DNA of 25,309 nt from a virus: positions 1 through 25,309 of IMG/VR virus record IMGVR_UViG_3300007236_002724, one strand, 5' to 3'. The notes under the pieces were generated by a model. The model searched no databases. It saw only the letters and a program-made list of their open reading frames with translations, and was not told the DNA's origin. This document shows, piece by piece, positions 2,776 to 23,161 of the stretch; positions within the stretch are counted from its first letter, which is position 1; the number at the start of each line of letters is the position of its first letter. Both the position numbers and the translations under genes were made by a program.

Positions 2776-4395
2776 CTAACGGACCTTCCTCGCGTCCACA
2801 ACCATAGCTTCGAACAGGTCTTTTATGTCCGAACCTGCGCCGATGACTTCGTCGTCCTGCCCCTTGACCCGCTCTCCGAGCACCTGCTCGATCAGCTTCA
2901 TCTTCTTCCGGACCACCTGCCCCACACGTTCGTCAATCGTGTCCCTACACACGAGGTGGACGGCGTAGCAGGTGTCGTTCTCTGACCCGATGCGGATCAT
3001 ACGCCCCACGATCTGCAAATAGTCACCAGCAGACCAGGGCGAATCGTAGAACACCAAGGCTTTCGCGCTCTGCAGGTTGATGGCGTCGCCGCCCGCCATG
3101 GTGATGAAGATGACTCTGGTTTCGTTGTTGTAGTCTTGGAAAGCCTTCATGGCTTCCCGCCTCTGGAACTCGTTTTCGTCCCCGGTGACTCTGACGCACT
3201 TCACACCCTCCTTCTCCAGATAGGGCATGGCCACGTTCACCATTTCCTTGAACCGGGTGAAAACGATGACCTTTTCGTCGTGGAAGTCACCGCCCTCTGT
3301 CAGCATATTCTTGAGTTCTTCGAGCTTTTCGCTCTTGTACCCGGCGTCAAAGCCAATCAGGGCTGGGTGGTTGACGATTTCCTGACAGTAGATAAGGGCT
3401 GTCAGCTGGGTCGTTTCCTTCTCGTCACCATCGCCCATTTCCAGTAGCCCAGCCAGAGCCTCCTGGTACTTCTCGTGCTGGAATTTGGACATTCCCACCT
3501 TGACGGTTCTGGTGGTCAGAACCGGGAGGTCCTTGGCAACCGCGTGTTTGGGCCTGCCCAGATAGGAGGGCTCTCCCGTGGGCTTGGTTCCGTCCAGCTC
3601 GTTGGTCTGGGTTCCCTGGATCTTGTCCCGGAATTTCGCGATGTCGGAAGGTCTGTACCCCACAATCTGTGGGACCATCCTCCCGTTGGCGACTCTCTGC
3701 ATCTTGGTGATACAATACTGGTTGATGAAGGCGTTCTTGCTGTATGGGAACAGAGCAGGTTTGACCACCTTGAAAACCCCATACCCCTCAAGCAGGTTGT
3801 TCTTGATAAGGGTGGCGGTCAGTCCCCAACAACGTGCAGCCTGGGTGCTGTAGTGTCTGCAGACCTTGTGTACACGGGTGCTGGGGTTCTTCACCACAGT
3901 CACCTCGTCCAGAATCAGGGTGTAACCCTCCCAATGTTGCATCGTGGAGAAGTCGTTGCAAGCGGAGGTGTAGCCCTGAATAAGGACAGTTGGGCCCTCA
4001 GTCTCCGCCCACGCTTTCTGCGCCACGGTGCGCTTCTTGGGAGAGCCAACCGCCATGAAGACTTCCACACCCGTGGTGAACTTCTCGAATTCGTCCTCCC
4101 ACTGAGGCACGGAGGACTTCTTGGTCAGGACTATGACCTTGTGGTTGGGGTCGCGCTTCCAGACCTGACATAGACCAGCGATGCTCTCGATGGTCTTCCC
4201 CAGGCCGCAGTCGTCCCCGACGACGAACCGGGGAACAGAGAGGATATGCACCACCATCTGCTGCTGGTATGGTCTCAGGATAAGGGGTACATTATCGCCC
4301 CGAGAGTTTGTAATGAACTCCCTAAAATTGGGTGGGGTAGGAAGTGAAATATCCTCCCGTTCCCTGACGGCCCAAAGTCTGTCAAAAGCGCTCAT
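2776..4395 (-). CDS. SNF2-family DNA helicase/translocase
   Basis: A 539-residue superfamily 2 ATPase with both RecA-like lobes. Visible motifs: LRPYQQQMV (Q-region, ~40-48), Walker A DDCGLGKT (61-68), Ia VIVLTKKSS (87-95), motif II ILDEVT (161-166), motif III GLTATLIKN (191-199), then in lobe 2 KVIVFTRF, motif V AGGDAINLQSAKALVFYD and motif VI QIVGRMIRIGS. The VI motif and LRPYQ are characteristic of SNF2 rather than UvsW-type helicases. Motif II is DEVT instead of the usual DEAH/DEGH. Such phage proteins are thought to remodel protein-DNA complexes or aid replication and recombination. The start at 4395 is set by GGAGG 7 nt upstream; an in-frame GTG at 4428 lacks a ribosome binding site. 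It heads the 4395-1077 operon and diverges from the 4490 gene across 94 bases. Confidence 0.93.
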   Translation of the reverse strand: MSAFDRLWAVREREDISLPTPPNFREFITNSRGDNVPLILRPYQQQMVVHILSVPRFVVGDDCGLGKTIESIAGLCQVWKRDPNHKVIVLTKKSSVPQWEDEFEKFTTGVEVFMAVGSPKKRTVAQKAWAETEGPTVLIQGYTSACNDFSTMQHWEGYTLILDEVTVVKNPSTRVHKVCRHYSTQAARCWGLTATLIKNNLLEGYGVFKVVKPALFPYSKNAFINQYCITKMQRVANGRMVPQIVGYRPSDIAKFRDKIQGTQTNELDGTKPTGEPSYLGRPKHAVAKDLPVLTTRTVKVGMSKFQHEKYQEALAGLLEMGDGDEKETTQLTALIYCQEIVNHPALIGFDAGYKSEKLEELKNMLTEGGDFHDEKVIVFTRFKEMVNVAMPYLEKEGVKCVRVTGDENEFQRREAMKAFQDYNNETRVIFITMAGGDAINLQSAKALVFYDSPWSAGDYLQIVGRMIRIGSENDTCYAVHLVCRDTIDERVGQVVRKKMKLIEQVLGERVKGQDDEVIGAGSDIKDLFEAMVVDARKVR

Positions 4396-4489
4396 GGTTT
4401 TGCCTCCGAAAGGACGAAATACAGCCACGAAAAAGGCGACACATTAATGAACGCTCGAAAGAAGGATAAAGGGGTGGAGGGCGATTTAC

Positions 4490-4974: not shown

Positions 4975-5220
4975 ATGAGCAATCCCACCCACTTCAAGCT
5001 TGAACTGATCGAAAGATTTGACAGCAAGGGTGACAGCTATTACATCGGCTCAGTCAATTTCAACTTTCCCATGCTCGTGGATTTGTCTGCCGTGGACTTC
5101 CTGGTATTCCACCCCGAAGAGTTGGGACCGGGAGAGGAAGACAAGGACAACCGCACAGCTACTCTGGTTATCCGGAAAGGCAACCGGAACCACGATCAAA
5201 TCTTCCGTCGGAAAGGATAA
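4975..5220 (+). CDS. Unknown 81-aa protein
   Basis: An 81-residue acidic/basic mixed protein with TAGGAA upstream of the ATG. Predicted strands (FKLELIERF, SYYIGSVNFNFPML, FLVFHPEEL, TATLVIRKG) suggest a small beta-barrel. No family recognised. Its stop codon is 6 nt before the truncated tRNA remnant at 5227. Confidence 0.7.
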   Translation: MSNPTHFKLELIERFDSKGDSYYIGSVNFNFPMLVDLSAVDFLVFHPEELGPGEEDKDNRTATLVIRKGNRNHDQIFRRKG

Positions 5221-5226
5221 AGCCAA

Positions 5227-5246
5227 GCCCCGATAGCTCAGTTGGA
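5227..5246 (+). pseudogene. tRNA gene 5' fragment (truncated)
   Basis: The stretch starts with a 7-nt acceptor-like strand (GCCCCGA), then TA (positions 8-9), GCTC (5' side of the D stem) and AGTTGG (D loop), exactly the layout of a bacterial or phage tRNA. It then breaks off. The D-stem partner GAGC, anticodon arm and T arm are missing, and the HNH gene (antisense) ends 2 nt later. No matching 3' half with TCGGGGC is visible downstream. I read it as a tRNA gene truncated by arrival of the homing endonuclease gene. Confidence 0.6.
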
Positions 5247-5248
5247 AA

Positions 5249-5761
5249 TCACCAACCGCCTATTCTGGCGTGTTCTTCTCTGTGGCAGTTAGCGCAAAGC
5301 ATAACGCACTTATCCAACTCCCTTCTGGTTCTGTCGTCAATTTTGTTCAACCTGACACGAGCTATGGTGAAATCCTTTTGAGTAGGGTCTAAGTGGTGGA
5401 ACTCCAAGGCGCTGGGGTGCCTGGAGTACCCACACTTAGAGCACTCTCCCCCCTTATAGTCAACACACTGTACTTTGAATGCCCTCAGGCGTTCCACCAC
5501 CTGTTTGGTGGTGCATGGCTTACAATAAACAGACTTACCTTCTTTCCCTCTTCTCTTGTAGAATTCTGAGCGGGACTTCTTGGTTTTGCACCTCGGACAC
5601 ACCCTGAATTCAGAAACTCTTGGAGAAGGTGAGTTCTCAGTCTTCAGGTTGTACTTTTTCATCCAGTGCTTGATGGTGGATGGGGAACAACCAAATTTGG
5701 TTGCCATACCCCTTATGGTCTCTCCCTTCTCTATCTCGGACTCCAAATTCTCTCTTTGCAT
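5249..5761 (-). CDS. HNH homing endonuclease with N-terminal HTH
   Basis: A 170-residue protein. Residues ~11-40 form a helix-turn-helix (GETIRGMATKFGCSPSTIKHWMKKYNLK) of the kind used for DNA targeting in phage HNH proteins. CPRC at 55-58 and YCKPC near 79-83 form one zinc ribbon. The HNH/treble-clef nuclease follows: C107/C110 (CSKC), catalytic FHHLDP around 121-126, and LCANCH near 155-160 with H164. These nucleases cut DNA and drive their own spread. GAGGT precedes the ATG. It lies antisense between a broken tRNA 5' end and an intact tRNA-Arg, so the tRNA cluster was its likely target. Codon use (AGA/AGG, ATA) matches the phage, so it is not a very recent arrival from the host. Confidence 0.9.
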   Translation of the reverse strand: MQRENLESEIEKGETIRGMATKFGCSPSTIKHWMKKYNLKTENSPSPRVSEFRVCPRCKTKKSRSEFYKRRGKEGKSVYCKPCTTKQVVERLRAFKVQCVDYKGGECSKCGYSRHPSALEFHHLDPTQKDFTIARVRLNKIDDRTRRELDKCVMLCANCHREEHARIGGW

Positions 5762-5773
5762 TTTCTACCTCGT

Positions 5774-5848
5774 GGGGCTATGGTGAAATGGATATCACAT
5801 GGGCCTTCTAAGCCCTCGTTCCAGGTTCGAATCCTGGTAGCCCTGCCA
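5774..5848 (+). tRNA. tRNA-Arg (anticodon UCU)
   Basis: A full cloverleaf: acceptor GGGGCTA/TAGCCCT with a G1:U72 pair, D stem GTGA/TCAC, anticodon stem TGGGC/GCCCT with a T:T mismatch at its top, loop CTTCTAA with anticodon TCT at 5807-5809, and T arm CCAGG-TTCGAAT-CCTGG. The discriminator is G73 and CCA is encoded (5846-5848). It reads AGA, and AGG by wobble, both abundant in several phage genes here. Confidence 0.93.
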
Positions 5849-5856
5849 CTTTATAG

Positions 5857-5900
5857 TAGCCCAACCGAACTATTGCAAAAAACATAGTCTGGTTGGGCTA
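5857..5900 (+). other. Inter-tRNA hairpin
   Basis: TAGCCCAACCGAACTAT (5857-5873) pairs with ATAGTCTGGTTGGGCTA (5884-5900): 15 of 17 pairs, with a 2-nt internal mismatch, around an A-rich loop. It fills the space between tRNA-Arg(UCU) and tRNA-Arg(CCU). Without a U-run it is more likely a processing or stability element of a tRNA precursor than a terminator; a factor-dependent terminator is possible. Confidence 0.5.
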
Positions 5901-5908
5901 TTAGCCAT

Positions 5909-5985
5909 CTCCTCGTAGCTCAGTTGGATAGAGCACAAGATTCCTAATCTTGGGGCCGCAGGTTCGAATCCTGCCGAGGAGGCCA
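5909..5985 (+). tRNA. tRNA-Arg (anticodon CCU)
   Basis: A full cloverleaf: acceptor CTCCTCG/CGAGGAG, D stem GCTC/GAGC, anticodon stem CAAGA/TCTTG, loop TTCCTAA with anticodon CCT at 5943-5945, T arm GCAGG-TTCGAAT-CCTGC, discriminator G and encoded CCA (5983-5985). It reads AGG. With the UCU isoacceptor just upstream it gives the phage dedicated supply for both AGR codons. Confidence 0.94.
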
Positions 5986-6082
5986 TTTTGAGAGGGTAAA
6001 ATAAAACCGTCGACCATCTGGTCGGCGTTAACACACACACACAAGGAGTCTCTTACCGGAAGCAGGCCAGGGCACCCCCCAT

Positions 6083-6158
6083 GGGCCGCTGGCGCAGTTG
6101 GTAGCGCACCGGACTTTTAATCCGAGGGTCGTGGGTTCGAGTCCCACGCGGCCCACCA
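6083..6158 (+). tRNA. tRNA-Lys (anticodon UUU)
   Basis: A full cloverleaf: acceptor GGGCCGC/GCGGCCC, D stem GCGC/GCGC, anticodon stem CCGGA/TCCGA, loop CTTTTAA with anticodon TTT, T arm GTGGG-TTCGAGT-CCCAC, A73 and encoded CCA (6156-6158). It reads AAA and AAG. The 97 bases before it contain a small hairpin (CGACC-ATCT-GGTCG, 6011-6024) and an (AC)n run near 6031-6044, but no gene I can support. Confidence 0.95.
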
Positions 6159-6192
6159 TCTTCCCGTGCGGCTTAGCCGCCAAGGAGCAACC

Positions 6193-6375
6193 ATGAAAAA
6201 GAAGAAGAAGTTCAACGCCGCGAAGGCGGCAAACGCCGCCACGCGAAAGGCCCACTTCGCTGCTGGGGGCACGGTCGCCATGTGGCGAGGTCGTGCTGCA
6301 ACCTTCACCGACCGCAAGAAGAAGGCAAACCGTCGCGCCTGTCGCGGCAACCTTTCCCCCTCCCACGGAGGATAG
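6193..6375 (+). CDS. Small Lys/Arg/Ala-rich basic protein
   Basis: A 60-residue, very basic protein that begins MKKKKK, has an alanine-rich helix (NAAKAANAATRKAHFAA) and ends with a basic TDRKKKANRRACRG segment. AAGGAG lies 6 nt before the ATG at 6193. A nucleic-acid-binding role is likely from charge alone; no family is assigned. All seven Arg codons are CGN, unlike the AGA/AGG-rich phage genes on the left, and it is tightly coupled to the next gene (4 bases between stop and start). The pair looks acquired. Confidence 0.65.
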   Translation: MKKKKKFNAAKAANAATRKAHFAAGGTVAMWRGRAATFTDRKKKANRRACRGNLSPSHGG

Positions 6376-6379
6376 AGGC

Positions 6380-7264
6380 ATGCTCACTGCAAAGAAGCTC
6401 GTCGACACCCACCGCGTTGGTGGTGGGTACGCTCGCCGTTCCGGGAAGCGTGGTCGGTGCAAGAACCCCGAAGTCCTCCGTCTCCGCCGCGAGTGGCTTG
6501 TGCTGGAGGAGGTTGTCGGAGAGGATGGGGTCACCTATCTCGACCTCACCGACCGCTACGATTCCCCCCGCGTGAAGTCGACCCGCCCGAACCGGAGCTG
6601 GGAGCGCAAGGACTTCGGCGAAAACCTGAACCCCTTGTGGCGGTTTCTGCAGAAGTCTGTGGGGCGCAACTGGGATTCCGTCTACAGCGAACTCTGTTCC
6701 CGCATGGACCCGCGAGGTGCCGTTAGCGGACACATCTTCCAGCACCTGTTCGACTTTGTGGTCACGTCTGAGAACGTGACCCTTGTCGATGGGAAGCCCC
6801 ACCACAAGGACTGGAAGGGCCTTCGTCCCATCACCTACAAGGGAAAGGTGGGTGAATTCTGGAACTTCTGGGTTGACCCGCGAGACGGGAAGCTCAAAGT
6901 TGGTGTCAAACCTGAACTCAGCAAGTGGGAGAAGGAAAGAAAGGACCGAGCTGAGCACTTCGCGAACAGCGTCCGCGATCTCGGAAATCGCGAGTGGCTG
7001 TGTCGGGATTCTGCTTCGGGACTTTGGTACCGGGTTCGCTATGAACCCCAGGTATGGCACCATTACACCAAGGAATCCTTGCGCTGGGGGCGGAACCCCG
7101 ATGGCTCTTTTGCCCGTTGTGAGCCCTATCTCCAGGAGTGCAAGGAAGCCCTGGTCAAAGAGGCACCCCACCCCGATACATTGGTTCTGCCGAAGGTCGG
7201 AAAAGATCTGGTCTTGGTCTCGTGTCGGAGCGCCAGCAAGAAGGAAATCAAGACCCACGTCTGA
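6380..7264 (+). CDS. Unknown 294-aa protein of bacterial codon style
   Basis: A 294-residue protein with an N-terminal basic patch (ARRSGKRGRCKN) and Trp-rich body segments (SWERKDFGENLNPLWRFL, VGRNWDSVYSELCSRM, VSGHIFQHLFDFV, WNFWVDPRDGKL). From memory this resembles a widespread uncharacterised family in high-GC Gram-negative bacteria, but I cannot confirm it and no catalytic motif stands out. The start at 6380 is set by GGAGG 8 nt upstream, just after the small basic gene. Arg codons are 29 CGN to 1 AGA and all three Ile codons are ATC, the opposite of the 85-1080 gene. Recent horizontal acquisition is the simplest reading. Confidence 0.8.
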   Translation: MLTAKKLVDTHRVGGGYARRSGKRGRCKNPEVLRLRREWLVLEEVVGEDGVTYLDLTDRYDSPRVKSTRPNRSWERKDFGENLNPLWRFLQKSVGRNWDSVYSELCSRMDPRGAVSGHIFQHLFDFVVTSENVTLVDGKPHHKDWKGLRPITYKGKVGEFWNFWVDPRDGKLKVGVKPELSKWEKERKDRAEHFANSVRDLGNREWLCRDSASGLWYRVRYEPQVWHHYTKESLRWGRNPDGSFARCEPYLQECKEALVKEAPHPDTLVLPKVGKDLVLVSCRSASKKEIKTHV

Positions 7265-7332: not shown

Positions 7333-7662
7333 GTGCTTGAAGCAGAAGTCGCGGCAGTCATCAGAGAACTTGGGTGGAACATCGTACGTGGTCCGTATTA
7401 CAACGGAAAGTACGCACACAAAGGCATCCACCTTTGGTCCATCAAGTCGGTTCTCAGCAAGAAGGAAATGGAAGACAGGGGCATCAAACTGGACAAGAAC
7501 TCCAAACCCGGAGACACCAGAACCGTGCGGTTCATGGCAGTGGTCAAGGATGGAGAGATGAAGCCCCTGCGCCACATCACCTCTTCCGAAAGGAAGAAAC
7601 TCGGTTCGCTCAAAGGCAATAGGAACCGGGTAAAGTCCAACACTCAGAATACGGGGAGTTAG
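7333..7662 (+). CDS. Unknown 109-aa basic protein
   Basis: A 109-residue protein starting at GTG 7333 (no strong ribosome binding site; an internal start is possible). It contains LEAEVAAVIRELGWNIVRGP, then a basic region (SKKEMEDRGIKLDKNSKPGD, SSERKKLGSLKGNRNR) that suggests nucleic-acid binding. No family recognised. Its last 10 bases, including the stop, overlap the 5' end of the CAU tRNA gene, so tRNA processing would cut its mRNA at the stop codon. Confidence 0.6.
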   Translation: MLEAEVAAVIRELGWNIVRGPYYNGKYAHKGIHLWSIKSVLSKKEMEDRGIKLDKNSKPGDTRTVRFMAVVKDGEMKPLRHITSSERKKLGSLKGNRNRVKSNTQNTGS

Positions 7663-7729
7663 CTCAGTTGGTCAGAGCATCCGGCTCATAACCGGACGGT
7701 CCTCGGTTCAAGCCCGAGACTCCCTACCA
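7653..7729 (+). tRNA. tRNA with anticodon CAU, probably tRNA-Ile2
   Basis: A full cloverleaf: acceptor GGGGAGT/ACTCCCT with a G1:U72 pair, D stem GCTC/GAGC, anticodon stem TCCGG/CCGGA, loop CTCATAA, T arm CTCGG-TTCAAGC-CCGAG, A73 and encoded CCA. It is not an initiator tRNA: 1:72 is paired and the three G:C pairs typical of initiators are absent. The choice is elongator Met or Ile2. The adjacent tilS gene, whose product converts C34 of tRNA-Ile2(CAU) to lysidine, argues for Ile2 and AUA decoding. The TTCAAG T-loop resembles E. coli Ile2 more than Met. The C4:G69 and C5:G68 pairs that help E. coli TilS recognition are absent, so the assignment rests mainly on context. Confidence 0.9.
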
Positions 7730-7781
7730 TACACAGAAACCCCCCGTCGGCGAAAACTGGCGGGGGGTTTTCTGTGTATGG
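7727..7781. terminator. Bidirectional terminator hairpin after the CAU tRNA
   Basis: CCATACACAGAAACCCCCCG (7727-7746) pairs with 7761-7781 (CGGGGGGTTTTCTGTGTATGG) over 20 bp with one bulged T. The stem continues a little into the TCGG/CTGG loop region. GGGGGGTTTT is typical of an intrinsic terminator, and the reverse strand is similar. The left arm starts with the CCA of the tRNA, so the tRNA 3' end lies inside the hairpin. Confidence 0.75.
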
Positions 7782-7855
7782 GGCACCCACCGATTTTGGA
7801 GACCAGAGTTTGTCGGATAGCCTATGGTTTGTATGCACGCATTACGGAGTCTCGT

Positions 7856-8512
7856 ATGAAGAAGTACCACCTCAGAGTCAAGAATATCGTTCCACACGAG
7901 GTAGCAGTGGCTGTGTCTGGGGGCGCGGACAGCATGGCGGCTCTGGATTTCCTCAGGCGTCCGGGCAGGGATATTCTGGCCCTCCACATGAACCACGGGA
8001 CTCCATTTGCTGATGAAGCCCAATCCTTGGTGGAGAAATATTGTTCCCAGCACAGCATCCCCCTGGTTGTAGGTCGTCTGGACAAGGAAATGGCCCCCGG
8101 TCGCTCCAAAGAAGACTTCTGGCGTGAGAACCGCTATGAATTCTTCGAAGCCAACCGGGGGGAAAGGAAGGTGGTCACGTGCCATCACCTGGGTGACGCC
8201 GTGGAGAATTGGTTGTTCACCTGCATGCACGGAAACCCGGCACTGATCCCAGAGGTCAGGGGGCACTATATCCGGCCATTCCTACACACCGAGAAGATGG
8301 GCTTTGTCCAGTGGTGTGAGAGGAAGGGGGTCCCCTTCATCGAGGACCCCAGCAACACCGATATTTCCTACATGAGGAACTACATCCGGCACGAAATGAT
8401 GCCGAAGGTCCTAAAAGTGAACCCCGGCATCAAGAAGACCGTCCGCAAGTTGATGGACAAACGGGGGGCCTATGCACACGGGTCGTCGTCTGCCGGGTCC
8501 TCTGGCGGATAA
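7856..8512 (+). CDS. tilS: tRNA(Ile)-lysidine synthase, short phage form
   Basis: A 218-residue N-type ATP pyrophosphatase. The P-loop SGGADS is at 21-26, HMNHG at 44-48, CHHLGDAVEN at 109-118 (TilS consensus HHxxDxxET), the RPFL motif at 140-143, and EDPSNTD followed by MRNYIRHEMMP at 163-183, the TilS-specific signature. TilS uses ATP and lysine to turn C34 of tRNA-Ile2(CAU) into lysidine, which changes its codon from AUG to AUA and its amino acid from Met to Ile. Only the catalytic domain is present; the C-terminal domains of the long (~430-aa) bacterial enzymes are absent. The start at 7856 is set by GGAG 6 nt upstream; the frame is open further up without a ribosome binding site. It has no ATA codon (0 of 9 Ile). 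The C-terminal SSSAGSSGG tail overlaps the convergent virion gene by 43 bases. Confidence 0.92.
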   Translation: MKKYHLRVKNIVPHEVAVAVSGGADSMAALDFLRRPGRDILALHMNHGTPFADEAQSLVEKYCSQHSIPLVVGRLDKEMAPGRSKEDFWRENRYEFFEANRGERKVVTCHHLGDAVENWLFTCMHGNPALIPEVRGHYIRPFLHTEKMGFVQWCERKGVPFIEDPSNTDISYMRNYIRHEMMPKVLKVNPGIKKTVRKLMDKRGAYAHGSSSAGSSGG

Positions 8513-11500
8513 GGAATGAGGGGGATGTTGGGGTCCCTTATCGCATTGGTGGATTTGACCATCGGCTTGCCTTCAAGTCTGTACCTATCAGCCGCTGAAT
8601 AGCCCTTACCGTAGTCCGTGGGGCTGATTATGCCGTCAAGTGCGTAACCGTGCTCGCACCCAGCTCCCTCGCCGTATACGGCGGAGGTCACCACCACCAT
8701 CTGCACTTCGTCGCCGTAGGACCGGATGGCAGTCCCAGCAAACGCTTCCTCGTAGGAATTGTGGACCAGGTATGCTCTCCCTGTCAGGATGGCTCCCTTC
8801 ACCACGGGCTCGTCACCCTCAGAGAGGCCCCCGGCAGAGTAGTCCACCGGACCACCAGCTGCCTCCGAAGAAAGGACGTACACCGACCCCCCACCCCGGT
8901 ACAGTCGGAACCTCCGGGTGCCATCCGGGGCCGAAACGGCGTTGTAAGCCGTGTACTGAAGAATGGCCCCGTCTGCCATCCCCATTTCCCCTCCCGCACC
9001 GTGAAGTCTCTCCGAGGGGATCTGGGAATCACCGAAGAAGGTGGAAACCTCCGTGGTGGACTGAGCACCTCCCCCAGACTTGATAGAGTAGGCCACCCCC
9101 TGGCGAAGCGGGTCCTCACCAAGGAAGTCTGAGTCCTGCACCAGAATCCCAAGCGGGAGTCTGTCGGTCATACCAGCCGCCCTCACAGGGGTGGGGGCGG
9201 AGGAAGACCGGGAGGCGTTTACGGGAACGTTGTGCCCACCGGACAGCGGGAGTCGGGTCAGAAGGGCGGAATAGGACGAAAGCCCAGACTGCAGTCTGTA
9301 GACATCCGTGTCGCTTATGGTGACGAACGTGTCTTCACCAGCAGACCCAGGTACAACAGCCTGTATGACCAGGGTGGTACCATAGGGGTGGGACCTGACC
9401 TTGTAGGTGTTTCTGAGACTGAGACCAACGGAGGTACCGAGGTTGTTGAGGGCCTGACTGAGGTTTTCAACCGACTCAACGGCGCTGGCACCAGCTGTCC
9501 AGTCCACCCCTTCGGTTATGGCTATCCCGGTTCCTCCCCCTCTCTCGAAAACGAGGGTGGTGCCGGATATACTGGGGTTGTCGAGGATGGTGATCGCCAA
9601 TTCGGCATAATGACCGTCTTCGGGCTGTCCAGCGCTCAGGGATCTGACGTGAGGCTGATACTGGTTGTCGGTGGAGGAACTTGGTATCCGCCCTCCGGTG
9701 CTCTCCAGATATCCGGAGTCGGTTACAGTTCCGGGGAACACCTTCCCGCCGATCTTTCCGGTTCCCAGGGTGGTCCAGAAGTCCACGGTGGAGAGAATCC
9801 TCAGACCGCGAGCGTTGGGGATCTCCGGAACCTGGTCGTTGTCGTTGTCGTACTGCTGGAGGGGGGCCTTGAGAGCGAAGGCATCCAGAACTGGTATCTG
9901 GCCGTGCCTGCTCCGGTAGTCTGCGGTCTGCAGGGTCACTGCACTCCGGGTCATGAAGGGGTCGCCCTGGTACACCGTGCGCTGATAGGCTGAGTATCCA
10001 AGCACCCCACCCGGCATAGCGGTGGGGATGATCATTCTTATGTCGTTGACGAGCTGGTCGCTCGTGTAGACCCCTCTGTCAAGAACATAATTGTTCTTGT
10101 TTATGAACCCCTGGGCGAAGCCAAATACCGCCACTTCCACCACGTATTCGAGGTCCTCGAACTTCTGCCCGGAAGTGTAGGCGGGGTGGAGGGAAATGTC
10201 CACAGCCTCTTCCGGAATCACGTAGGTGTGGGCGTCAGAACCTGCAGCCATGACGTCTGCAGCCCCATCCTTCACTATGAAGAGAGTCTGCTTGTCGGCG
10301 TTGGTCCTGAGAAGGTTGGTGCCCTTGGCCACTCCCGTGTCGGGAGTGTATCCAAGACCGTTGAGCCAAGCAGAACCGTTGACGTCGTAGTCGCTCTTCT
10401 CGTAGACCCCGTACACTCTGGCCACGCCGAGATAAGGAGGCAGCTGAATACCCCTCATGGGCTTGTTGATGTCGGTGGACCTGGCGTTGACGTCCGTGTA
10501 GATCCTGCCCTGGTACCTGTTGTTGGGAGAGTCCCAGTACCCGTAGTCGAACCCGGTCGAGGCACCAGTCACTATCTTGAGGGGAAGCCCAGCAGAAGTC
10601 CCTCCCACTATGCCCTTGGTCGCGTCACCGGGAGTTGGGGTGTCGCTGAACAGGTGGTTTATACCGAAGTACGGTCCGTCCGTTCCGGCGTTTTCCCGCA
10701 CCGGGATGTCCTGACGACCGAACCGGGGCATGTACTCCAGAGGAACGTCGTACACGTCCGTGTCGGTGAACAGGCCAGCGCCGTCTATGGGGGTGATCCC
10801 ATCCAGATAGTTGGAGGGGATCTGGGCCCCTGCGGTCCGACGGAGGGGAAGGCTCATGGAGACCTGACGGAAAGGTCTGAAAACTACGGTCTTGGAACCC
10901 CCGTCCAAGAACAGCTCCGACTCCCTGGAAGTTTCGAAGTTGTAGCGGTTTTCCCCGTAGTGAGGTGCTGCAGGTGCGCTGAGTCCCAAGCTCTGGAGTC
11001 TGTTCCAAGCCATGAGGGGCTGGGAATCATAGTAGTACTCGTCTTCCGGCGCTCCGGTTCTGCCCCGTATGTCGGCAGGGCTGGGGTCCTTGTTCTCCGG
11101 GGACTCTCTGAGGACGTTGGTCCCGACAGGGTTGAAGACAGCGAACCTCAACAGGTCGTCGGGGACACGGGCCATAGCCCCACGGCTCGGACCGTAGAGG
11201 ATGCTGGTGTCCAGCACCATTTCTCCGGAGATGGTGGGACCGCCAGTTATGCCGTTCCAGGGATTTGTGGCCCCTCCCCTCACTCCCTGTATGTCGGTTA
11301 TCACCACGACCACAGCAGCGCTGGAAGAACCTATGTTGTCTTCGGTGTTGGTGTAGAGGGACCGGACTTCTGCGTTTACGGTTTCCCCAAGGGAAATGGA
11401 GGAGCCCACACCCACGGGCTCGACCCTGAGCCTGTCTGCAGCCGTGGCAGCGTTGGAGGTGTAATTGGTGATTCCGGCACCTATGACCCTGAAAAGTCCA

Positions 11501-13728
11501 GAATCCGTGGTCCCACCAGTCAGGAAGAGGTACAGCTCGCTGGTCCTTCCGGTGATGTCCCTACCACCGTTGGTGAGCATATCGTACAGGTTCTTCTTCC
11601 CGTGGAGGAGGGTCTTGGAAATACCATCCAAAGAAGAAGTCCGAGGAGAGGAGGGGTCCGCCACCCAGGCTCCGACTGCGTCAAAGTCCTGTCCGGTGAA
11701 CTCGACCTCTATCAGAGGCCCAGCCACGTGGGTCACTGCCACTGCACTCTCAGTGAGTTCGGAGTTCACCACCCCACCGAGGACTGCGTACGGGGCTATA
11801 AACCCTTGGTCCGGGAGTGGGAACATCGGACCGGGGTGGGAATTGGGGGTTTCGCCCAGTCCAGCTGGCTGGCTCCAGGTCTGAGGTCCGGTGGAGGAGT
11901 CACCTATGAACCTCATGAGGAACGGGGTCTGGTTGCCCAGACTGGAGGACTCTGGGGTAGCCACTGGCATCTGGTCGCGAGACAACCAGTATTCCCGTGG
12001 ACCCACAAACCTCATGAAGGCGTCCGAGGAGGCGGAGGTCTTTCTGGCCCCGTCCTGTCCGCTGGAACCGCCGATGAAAAGGCGAATGACTGTGCCGTTC
12101 TCCCAAGTGGAGTTCCCGCTCGGTATGAACCCACTCACGGCAAAGTCAGCTGCAACTTCCCAATCGGTGGAGGCGTTGACTGAACCGGAGTCAGGAACCA
12201 GAGCAAGGGAGACGTGGTTCTGGACACACGCGGAGTCGGAAAACACCGTCCGGATTCCGTCGAAACCGTCGAGCTGCTCGGTCTGGGGAGGAAGGGAACC
12301 AGCTCCTCTGCCGAGGAGGGAATCGACCTCTATGATCCGGGTCCCCTGAGTGTCGGTCCCGGACCCCTGCTTGTAGGAGGAACGCAGGTTTCCGCTCAGG
12401 AGCTTTCCGAGGTTGTGCTTCAACACGGACTCGTAAGACCACTCACCGAATATGACCGACCTGCGGAGGTCCAGGATGTCGCTGCTGTCTATCTGGTCCG
12501 AGAACTTCCCGTCGGGGCGGAAGGTGTAGAACCCGAAGGAAGACCCAGCTTCGTGCAGAGTGGCCTGGGTCCCAAATCTGCCCCTGGAGTCCACGGTTAT
12601 GGTCCCGGCAGCAGCGTCAACCGCACTCACAGTCAGAATCTCGTCACCTATCACGAGGACGGTGGAGGACCACAGTATGTTGACGTTGTCCAGACCCGAG
12701 CCAGCCAGACCAGACACCGAAACCAGTCCCGTGAAGTCTTCATCCAAGTCCCCAACCAAAGTCACCGGGGTGAAGGTTCTGGCAGACTGGACGGGGTCGG
12801 TTATGGCACCGGATGTGGGGTTGCGGTCAAAGGACCCGTTCTGGTTGGCGTTCCCGGTGTCTATGGCCTTGAAGAGGTTGTAGTTGCGCCTGAAGACGGC
12901 ACAGATCGGGATAGCGTACGTGTAGCCGTCCACAGAACCGAGGTCGGACCTACTGGTCTCGTCCCCGTTGCCTGACCTCCACAGCCCCTTGTCCCCAAGC
13001 TCCACCCCCATGTTGGAGAAGGTGTAGCCAGCGACGGGGGAAACCTGAGACCCCTGCGCTATGACGTTGGGGTCGTCCAGACCATCGGGGTACTGGGCGA
13101 GGTCTATGGAGTCCCCAAGACCAGTGCCACTACCAACCACCCGAATGCGGTACTGGAGCTGAACCCTCTCCGTCGTCTCAAAGCCTATGGTTGGGTCCTG
13201 AATATCGTCAGTTACGTTGGTCCCGCCATACTTAACGTTTCCATACTTATAGAGAGTGGAAGCGGCGGGCTTGTTGACGGTGCTCGGGTTGGGAGCTACC
13301 TGAGCCTGCCAAACCTCAAGGAAAACGAAGTCTATGCGTGCATCGGTGGCGGGAGGAGGGAACAGGTTAATGCGGTTACTGGGGTCGCCCTCTGCGACCG
13401 AAGAACCAGAAACAGGAACTATCCACCCGTTTACGTTGGCCCACAGGAACGGAGCCTCGTTGGATTCCGTGGAAGGACGCCCGAACTGAAACCAGTTGCT
13501 CCAATTCGGGTTGGTGACGAAGGAGGACTCGGCTGCACACGGGTTCATGACGAACCCGGAGTGCATTTCGGACTGTACAGCTTCCCTCAGCTGCTCGTTG
13601 CTTATTTGAGCTACGAGGTTGAGTTCAGAGTCCAGGGGAGGTTTGGAAGCCTGCCACACAGTCTGCAGGAATTGGCGACTTTTGGCCGAAAGTGTCCGGC
13701 TAACGCCGTTTCCGAAGTCCTGGGCCAT
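8470..13728 (-). CDS. Giant virion structural protein (tail/baseplate type, putative)
   Basis: A 1752-residue, low-Cys, Gly/Ser/Thr-rich beta protein. The N-terminus SAKSRQFLQTVWQASKPPLD then SELNLVAQ (about 14-41) resembles the N-terminal signature of large phage tail/fibre proteins, where a DxELN-like motif follows a beta-strand. The body is long beta-rich segments. The last ~350 residues include YSIKSGGGAQSTTEVSTFFG, FRLYRGGGSVYVLSS and GRAYLVHNSYEEAFAGTAIR, and the protein ends in a Pro/Asp tail (PPEDPADDDPCA). No catalytic motif is evident. The start is set by CGGAG 9 nt upstream. It follows the sheath-like gene on the same strand but behind a terminator, so it probably has its own promoter. 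Virion location is inferred from size, composition and neighbour; fibre, baseplate and tail-surface roles are all open. Confidence 0.8.
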   Translation of the reverse strand: MAQDFGNGVSRTLSAKSRQFLQTVWQASKPPLDSELNLVAQISNEQLREAVQSEMHSGFVMNPCAAESSFVTNPNWSNWFQFGRPSTESNEAPFLWANVNGWIVPVSGSSVAEGDPSNRINLFPPPATDARIDFVFLEVWQAQVAPNPSTVNKPAASTLYKYGNVKYGGTNVTDDIQDPTIGFETTERVQLQYRIRVVGSGTGLGDSIDLAQYPDGLDDPNVIAQGSQVSPVAGYTFSNMGVELGDKGLWRSGNGDETSRSDLGSVDGYTYAIPICAVFRRNYNLFKAIDTGNANQNGSFDRNPTSGAITDPVQSARTFTPVTLVGDLDEDFTGLVSVSGLAGSGLDNVNILWSSTVLVIGDEILTVSAVDAAAGTITVDSRGRFGTQATLHEAGSSFGFYTFRPDGKFSDQIDSSDILDLRRSVIFGEWSYESVLKHNLGKLLSGNLRSSYKQGSGTDTQGTRIIEVDSLLGRGAGSLPPQTEQLDGFDGIRTVFSDSACVQNHVSLALVPDSGSVNASTDWEVAADFAVSGFIPSGNSTWENGTVIRLFIGGSSGQDGARKTSASSDAFMRFVGPREYWLSRDQMPVATPESSSLGNQTPFLMRFIGDSSTGPQTWSQPAGLGETPNSHPGPMFPLPDQGFIAPYAVLGGVVNSELTESAVAVTHVAGPLIEVEFTGQDFDAVGAWVADPSSPRTSSLDGISKTLLHGKKNLYDMLTNGGRDITGRTSELYLFLTGGTTDSGLFRVIGAGITNYTSNAATAADRLRVEPVGVGSSISLGETVNAEVRSLYTNTEDNIGSSSAAVVVVITDIQGVRGGATNPWNGITGGPTISGEMVLDTSILYGPSRGAMARVPDDLLRFAVFNPVGTNVLRESPENKDPSPADIRGRTGAPEDEYYYDSQPLMAWNRLQSLGLSAPAAPHYGENRYNFETSRESELFLDGGSKTVVFRPFRQVSMSLPLRRTAGAQIPSNYLDGITPIDGAGLFTDTDVYDVPLEYMPRFGRQDIPVRENAGTDGPYFGINHLFSDTPTPGDATKGIVGGTSAGLPLKIVTGASTGFDYGYWDSPNNRYQGRIYTDVNARSTDINKPMRGIQLPPYLGVARVYGVYEKSDYDVNGSAWLNGLGYTPDTGVAKGTNLLRTNADKQTLFIVKDGAADVMAAGSDAHTYVIPEEAVDISLHPAYTSGQKFEDLEYVVEVAVFGFAQGFINKNNYVLDRGVYTSDQLVNDIRMIIPTAMPGGVLGYSAYQRTVYQGDPFMTRSAVTLQTADYRSRHGQIPVLDAFALKAPLQQYDNDNDQVPEIPNARGLRILSTVDFWTTLGTGKIGGKVFPGTVTDSGYLESTGGRIPSSSTDNQYQPHVRSLSAGQPEDGHYAELAITILDNPSISGTTLVFERGGGTGIAITEGVDWTAGASAVESVENLSQALNNLGTSVGLSLRNTYKVRSHPYGTTLVIQAVVPGSAGEDTFVTISDTDVYRLQSGLSSYSALLTRLPLSGGHNVPVNASRSSSAPTPVRAAGMTDRLPLGILVQDSDFLGEDPLRQGVAYSIKSGGGAQSTTEVSTFFGDSQIPSERLHGAGGEMGMADGAILQYTAYNAVSAPDGTRRFRLYRGGGSVYVLSSEAAGGPVDYSAGGLSEGDEPVVKGAILTGRAYLVHNSYEEAFAGTAIRSYGDEVQMVVVTSAVYGEGAGCEHGYALDGIISPTDYGKGYSAADRYRLEGKPMVKSTNAIRDPNIPLIPYPPEDPADDDPCA

Positions 13729-22807: not shown

Positions 22808-23161
22808 TTATCCCCAAGGAAGCTCCTCTATTATTGTGTGGCCTTTGCTCTCCAGATACTTCCTGGCATAAGCGACAGCCTCTTTCATGGACTTCTTAGG
22901 ACCCACCTCTTTACCCCCCAAGAACACCATCCAGCCACCGGGTGCCTCATACACCTCAGCCAAGGGGTCTGGTTGTCCCCCCTTGGGGAAGGGCCAATCC
23001 AGGGTTCTCAAAAATATAAACCCCCCTCCCTCCCTTTCTATGGGAGGGGTGACCATGCTCTTACGGCGATTCACCACCTCCCTCTGGGCTATGGCGAAGT
23101 TTACCGGGTCATCCAGGAGGGTTTTTATGAGTTCATACCTGCCGAGCTTTGAGTTGCCCAT
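22808..23161 (-). CDS. Unknown 117-aa protein
   Basis: A 117-residue protein of unknown function. It has an N-terminal helix (GRYELIKTLLDDPVNFAIAQREVVNRRK), a central segment with GGGFIFLRTLDWPFPKGG, and a beta-alpha C-terminal unit (EVYEAPGGWMVFLGGKEVG, KEAVAYARKYLESKG) resembling small dsRNA-binding or DUF-type alpha/beta folds only in general layout. All six Ile codons are ATA and five of seven Arg are AGA/AGG, the clearest case of the phage codon style. AAGG precedes the ATG by ~9 nt. The 44 bases between it and the loader gene carry a short direct repeat (ACCGTTT twice). Confidence 0.75.
   Translation of the reverse strand: MGNSKLGRYELIKTLLDDPVNFAIAQREVVNRRKSMVTPPIEREGGGFIFLRTLDWPFPKGGQPDPLAEVYEAPGGWMVFLGGKEVGPKKSMKEAVAYARKYLESKGHTIIEELPWG

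Follow-up and report, generated by a model that had tools for sequence, protein, structure and literature searches.

Why would a phage encode both a transfer RNA (tRNA) with the anticodon CAU and a tRNA(Ile)-lysidine synthetase (TilS), an enzyme that nearly all bacteria possess and without which Escherichia coli and Bacillus subtilis are not viable? The question was raised by the IMG/VR record IMGVR_UViG_3300007236_002724, a linear virus sequence of 25,309 bases that is referred to here as the window. A CAU-anticodon tRNA gene at 7653-7729 (+ strand) is followed by a tilS gene at 7856-8512 (+ strand). TilS must distinguish tRNA-Ile2 from tRNA-Met, both of which carry the anticodon CAU. In the initial annotation of the window the two genes had been proposed to form an AUA-decoding module, 127 bases apart. 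The distance holds with the tilS start at ATG 7856, and the proposal was supported by the family and fold of TilS, the Ile2 type of the tRNA, the alignment of AUA codons with isoleucine, valine and leucine, and the recurrence of the pair in other phages. With a probability of roughly 0.8, tRNA and tilS would constitute a phage-encoded cassette for the decoding of AUA in AUA-rich genes.

The CAU tRNA

The tRNA gene was called as complete, with the anticodon CAT, by ARAGORN, and it scored 68.9 bits with the Rfam family RF00005 (gathering threshold 29). The terminal CCA is encoded. It had been described as a non-initiator tRNA, and this was borne out by its pairing: 1:72 is G-U and not the C x A of an initiator, and the three G-C pairs of the initiator anticodon stem are absent. 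The top matches in E. coli genomes were annotated as tRNA-Ile, and the matched sequence carried a CAT anticodon. Over the body, the window tRNA shared 81% and 77% of positions with a pair of E. coli Ile2 tRNAs; identity was 68% to the elongator tRNA-Met and 72% to the initiator tRNA-Met. Other features of the window tRNA are G1-U72, G4-C69, A5-U68 and C32, together with A73, A37, A38, U12-A23 and C29-G41, all five of which we take, from work on the E. coli enzyme, to be elements for isoleucyl-tRNA synthetase (IleRS). Judged by its sequence, the tRNA is of the Ile2 type and is neither an elongator nor an initiator tRNA-Met.

A single-domain TilS

The tilS gene encodes a protein of 218 residues. 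NCBIfam TIGR02432 (lysidine_TilS_N) was matched at 111.6 bits with an E value of 4e-32, well above the cut-off of 93.6, PF01171 was matched as well, and the best solved structures found with phmmer were the TilS enzymes of E. coli, A. aeolicus and G. kaustophilus. The full motif set read from the translation at the outset (SGGADS, CHHLGDAVEN, EDPSNTD, MRNYIRHE) is present, including the SGGxDS PP-loop. Alignment to 1wy5 revealed that all seven residues checked (D36, R110, R113, H133, D137, E140 and R205 of A. aeolicus) are kept, and most of them were invariant across 38 divergent phage proteins. D36, R113, H133, D137, E140 and R205 are the catalytic and lysine-site residues of the A. aeolicus enzyme. 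The AlphaFold model had a mean predicted local distance difference test score (pLDDT) of 89.2, and its top PDB matches were the TilS structures 1ni5, 2e21 and 2e89, with template modelling scores (TM-scores) of 0.76-0.79 by query length.

The window protein terminates at the end of the catalytic domain and is without both C-terminal domains, CTD1 and CTD2. A family-profile scan of IMG/VR gave 457 relatives among 480 candidate stretches; statements on length and clades refer to the best 80 of these 457, plus an earlier set of 60. PF01171 was matched by 38 of 38 phage members scanned, and none of the 38 matched PF09179 or PF11734, the substrate-binding and C-terminal domains of TilS. As a control, PF11734 was matched by six of eight bacterial TilS proteins. 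The phage open reading frames were mostly 195-220 residues long, a few reaching 240, compared to a median of 442 for complete bacterial ones. Published TilS types carry one or two C-terminal domains, CTD1 and CTD2 in type I and CTD1 in type II (PMC12514573). Since no C-terminal domains were found, the phage protein, a TilS by family and predicted fold, is assigned to neither type. PHROGs has no TilS family that fits the window protein.

When 38 phage TilS proteins were placed in a tree together with 40 from bacteria, the phage proteins fell on one side of a fully supported branch, and they are regarded as one phage clade. Among the matches listed, the nearest bacterial TilS proteins were 27-36% identical to that of the window, compared to up to 60% for the phage ones; bacterial sequences were scanned with two short patterns, which nearer cellular relatives could have escaped. 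One bacterial protein of 223 residues (L160) was considered as a cellular single-domain TilS and rejected, as it seems to come from a full-length gene interrupted by a frameshift. By eye, the sequence past its stop codon continues as TilS, and in the tree it groups with full-length Prolixibacteraceae TilS.

AUA codons in the window phage

Two relatives were used for comparison, G069 (a 68 kb fragment, DnaB 71% identical) and W04 (LR745208.1, 485 kb). At 123 ATA codons of the window, the homologues had isoleucine in 33%, leucine in 21%, valine in 19% and methionine in 7%. Methionine was found at 44% of the aligned window ATG codons, compared to 7% at ATA (p = 9e-13). Because ATA codons align with isoleucine, valine and leucine and not with methionine, the alignments indicate that AUA is read as isoleucine in this phage. 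A reading as methionine was ruled out by the same aligned residues.

The strongest enrichment was observed in a gene for a 1752-residue tail protein (8470-13728, - strand; phrog_1101), in which 40 of 81 isoleucine codons are ATA, compared to 13% predicted from fourfold sites (p = 5e-15). This case and the loss of both tRNA-binding C-terminal domains go beyond the initial annotation. The homologue in G069, 58% identical, has no ATA among 67 isoleucine codons, and that in W04 has 8 of 83. The ATA counts reported at the outset were all correct: 11 of 16 in an SprT-like gene (85-1080, + strand), whose G069 homologue has none of 17, 6 of 6 in a small gene (22808-23161, - strand) and 4 of 28 in the DnaB helicase. 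A scan of viral contigs for the tail protein gave no relative.

Relative to G069, ATA, AGG and AGA were among the largest codon rises in the tail gene, and these are the codons of the tRNA-Ile2, tRNA-Arg(CCU) and tRNA-Arg(UCU) of the window. The shift in arginine codons may come partly from a lower GC content, 58% compared to 64% in the G069 comparison. The ATA shift is not due to GC content, because a comparison of the tail gene with the sheath and helicase genes of the window shows a difference essentially at isoleucine alone (p = 7e-10; next p = 0.01). Avoidance of GATC or another motif as the cause of ATA in place of ATC was also rejected, with 11 GATC sites observed in the tail gene and 12 expected.

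AUA use in other tilS phages

Some observations weigh against a cassette that supplies AUA decoding. Most other tilS phages use AUA below expectation, with a median observed/expected ratio of 0.60-0.65. The cassette is also dispensable for this kind of phage in general, being absent from W04 and from the 68 kb fragment of G069: W04 has 36 tRNAs but neither TilS nor Ile2, and its ATA use is 11% compared to 27% expected, and no tRNA or tilS was found in the G069 fragment, where ATA use is 2.3%. Finally, the activity of a TilS without CTD1 and CTD2 cannot be assumed, because residues of CTD2 are essential in the B. cenocepacia enzyme (PMC12514573).

A general effect of the cassette on AUA use was rejected, the median observed/expected ratio being 0.65 with a CAU tRNA and 0.60 without (p = 0.135). 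As avoidance of AUA prevails in the other tilS phages, whether or not a CAU tRNA is present, the enrichment is a trait of the window phage and not of the tilS-phage family. The phage tilS genes themselves, at 80 loci, had 79 ATA among 955 isoleucine codons, compared to 238 expected; such avoidance was not seen in bacterial tilS. Self-avoidance as a bootstrapping signature was rejected, because control families (named by eye) avoid AUA as much, with observed/expected ratios of 0.30 for ClpP-like and 0.42 for DNA polymerase-like genes and 0 of 95 codons in small DsbA-like genes. In loci L002-L061 and L218-L297, conserved genes (tilS, ClpP-like, DNA polymerase-like, DsbA-like) strongly shun AUA and others do not. 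Two tRNAs of W04 (LR745208.1), at L182 7629-7705 and L189 2332-2406, were unusual: one was called with a TTA anticodon, which would read the stop codon UAA, and the other with an uncertain four-base anticodon.

Alternatively, the cassette could replace host tRNA-Ile2 lost in infection, by shut-off or by a tRNA-cleaving or tRNA-modifying defence, and not supply AUA-rich genes. Strong avoidance of AUA was seen in some tilS phages that carry an Ile2-like tRNA, such as a 357 kb contig (G030/L036), where ATA use is 8% compared to 37% expected. Supply of AUA-rich genes cannot be the reason in phages of this type, because they avoid AUA. Several tilS phages also carry large tRNA sets. However, no defence or tRNase target was pinpointed, no observation favoured the variant with a tRNA-cleaving defence, and AUA use is clearly raised in the window phage. 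For the window, replacement is a possible but tentative explanation.

Possible independence from host TilS

E. coli TilS requires the pairs C4:G69 and C5:G68 in its tRNA; these determinants are specific to E. coli and not universal, and additional elements are needed by B. cenocepacia TilS (PMC12514573). The window tRNA has G4:C69 and A5:U68. Independence from host TilS is plausible, since the window tRNA is without the acceptor determinants of the E. coli enzyme. In a set of 15 Ile2-like tRNAs, from the window and loci L218-L241, the 1:72 pair was weak or mismatched (G-U, A-U, U-A, U-U) in 13, G4:C69 was found in 11, and both E. coli determinants were retained in only three. The first six acceptor pairs of the window tRNA are common to L226, L234, L235 and L241. 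It is conceivable, though rather doubtful, that the pair forms a minimal orthogonal lysidine system, in which a catalytic-domain-only TilS would ignore the acceptor stem and tRNA-Ile2 would evade host TilS, gating AUA-rich late genes. The weak 1:72 and inverted 4:69 pairs would then be what lets the phage tRNA-Ile2 escape the host enzyme.

Recurrence of the pair

Seventeen non-redundant loci had a TilS at least 51% identical to that of the window together with any tRNA, and in 12 of them the nearest tRNA was CAU. Among more distant tilS loci with a tRNA the nearest was CAU in 4 of 32, and 31 of 63 more distant loci had no tRNA within reach. The tRNA lies 5' of tilS at a distance of 7 bases in L222 and L232 and 19 in L227, and 3' of tilS with gaps of 27 bases in L218, 11 in L233 and 28 in L018. 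The window TilS and the close cassette loci form a supported clade (96), and the loci identify the CAU tRNA with tilS as a recurrent cassette in this closest subclade. Over the 4-13 kb of these loci, no window gene had a relative except tilS and one HNH endonuclease match. As almost no other window gene has relatives there, the comparison, which covers only 4-13 kb, suggests that the cassette was transferred between phage backbones. Ile2-like CAU tRNAs far from tilS were also found in contigs of 275, 237 and 357 kb and in the Pseudomonas jumbo phage MIJ3.

In L018 (IMGVR_UViG_3300017917_001172, 5112-6679) a transfer-messenger RNA (tmRNA) gene with the tag ANDNVAPRLALAA stands directly 5' of tilS, and the Ile2-like CAU tRNA is the sole tRNA found in the locus. 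This tmRNA-tilS-tRNA arrangement is a compact translation-support locus.

The distant loci without a tRNA within reach would fit a TilS that chiefly boosts lysidinylation of the host tRNA-Ile2. The neighbouring tRNA would then be modified by either enzyme, and proximity would reflect a clustering of translation genes. This is unlikely: the nearest tRNA is preferentially CAU in the subclade of the window, and most cassette tRNAs miss at least one of the two pairs needed by E. coli TilS (PMC12514573). It is likewise improbable that base composition or gene ancestry happened to enrich AUA without any relation to the cassette. The enrichment was found in a single phage (n = 1) and in none of the other cassette phages; however, third-base A makes up only 10% of the fourfold sites of the tail gene, and the enrichment is restricted to the reading frame, with 40 ATA in frame compared to 4 and 8 in the other two. 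No such enrichment was seen in the sheath and helicase genes of the window phage, nor in the tail homologues of the relatives. A PP-loop protein repurposed for another substrate after loss of its tRNA-binding domains, next to a plain elongator tRNA-Met, would account for the lack of C-terminal domains in all 38 members scanned and for weak matches of some members to QueC-like and PAPS-reductase PHROGs, but it is very improbable given the TIGR02432 score, the conservation of the TilS active site across the 38 divergent proteins, the Ile2 type of the adjoining tRNA and the use of AUA as isoleucine.

Proposed mechanism

In the AUA-decoding cassette favoured here, the phage would transcribe its own CAU-anticodon tRNA-Ile2, which would be the main substrate of the phage TilS. 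The single-domain enzyme would activate C34 with ATP and attach lysine, giving the anticodon LAU. The LAU tRNA would be charged with isoleucine by host IleRS and would then read AUA. Decoding of AUA would in this way be supplied to the AUA-rich genes, foremost that of the tail protein, so that they could be well translated in a cell with weak AUA decoding, to the benefit of late translation. In parallel, the phage tRNA-Arg(UCU) and tRNA-Arg(CCU) would supply AGA and AGG.

Neighbouring features

ARAGORN found four tRNAs in the window. Besides tRNA-Ile2 these are tRNA-Arg(UCU) at 5774-5848, which reads AGA, tRNA-Arg(CCU) at 5909-5985, which reads AGG, and tRNA-Lys(UUU) at 6083-6158, all on the + strand. 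Between tRNA-Ile2 and tilS a strong terminator- or processing-like hairpin is predicted at 7730-7778 (+ strand; -40.2 kcal/mol, z -6.9), and none of 200 shuffled sequences was equally stable. A simple terminator scan did not call it, because the U run lies within the stem. The tilS reading frame is open from ATG 7778 to 8512. The start is probably ATG 7856, giving the protein of 218 residues. It is preferred because ATG 7778 falls at the base of the hairpin stem; it also agrees with the N-termini of the relatives and has a well-spaced Shine-Dalgarno-like GGAG upstream (7846-7849, + strand). The tail gene is convergent with tilS and overlaps its 3' end by 43 bases. An SNF2-type helicase (2776-4428) has 550 residues compared to 869 and 997 in the two relatives, and is possibly N-terminally shortened, or its start was missed.

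Relation to known systems

Virus-encoded TilS is a known concept, and the variant described here appears to be new. The closest case is the Pseudomonas jumbo phage vB_PaeM_MIJ3/PA5oct, whose TilS homologue was suggested to have a role in host viability (PMC6892783). Like the window protein it is a single-domain TilS (203 residues, 41% identical, same clade), and the MIJ3 genome also bears Ile2-like CAU tRNAs, but there tilS lies about 10 kb from them. The accessible part of that account notes no domain loss, substrate tRNA or link to AUA. The two CAU tRNAs of MIJ3 (L065, 2831-2907 and 3312-3388) have identical bodies and wholly different acceptor stems (C1-G72 and G1-C72). Chloroviruses also encode TilS together with clusters of tRNAs, a combination that was suggested to offset the codon bias of the host at AUA (PMC7589089); unlike the window phage they are eukaryotic algal viruses, and the portion of the article available describes no linked pair of tRNA-Ile2 and tilS. 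The Ralstonia jumbo phage RsoM2USA has many tRNAs and a lysidine synthetase, ORF84 (PMC8504454). At 349 residues ORF84 differs from the window protein, and a tblastn search with the window TilS did not recover it. Bacterial TilS enzymes of known structure (E. coli 1ni5, A. aeolicus 1wy5/2e21/2e89, G. kaustophilus 3a2k) share the catalytic domain, active site and fold, but add CTD1 (type II) or CTD1 and CTD2 (type I). A single-domain architecture, a recurrent tRNA-Ile2/tilS cassette and a gene-level codon comparison with relatives were not found in the open-access literature, as far as its texts were accessible.

How a TilS without tRNA-reading domains could tell tRNA-Ile2 from tRNA-Met is a sharp biochemical question, for which the phage TilS family offers many natural pairs of tRNA and enzyme. 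Between the window phage and G069, the supply of phage tRNAs can be compared with codon use in the same gene, a natural contrast that is rarely available.
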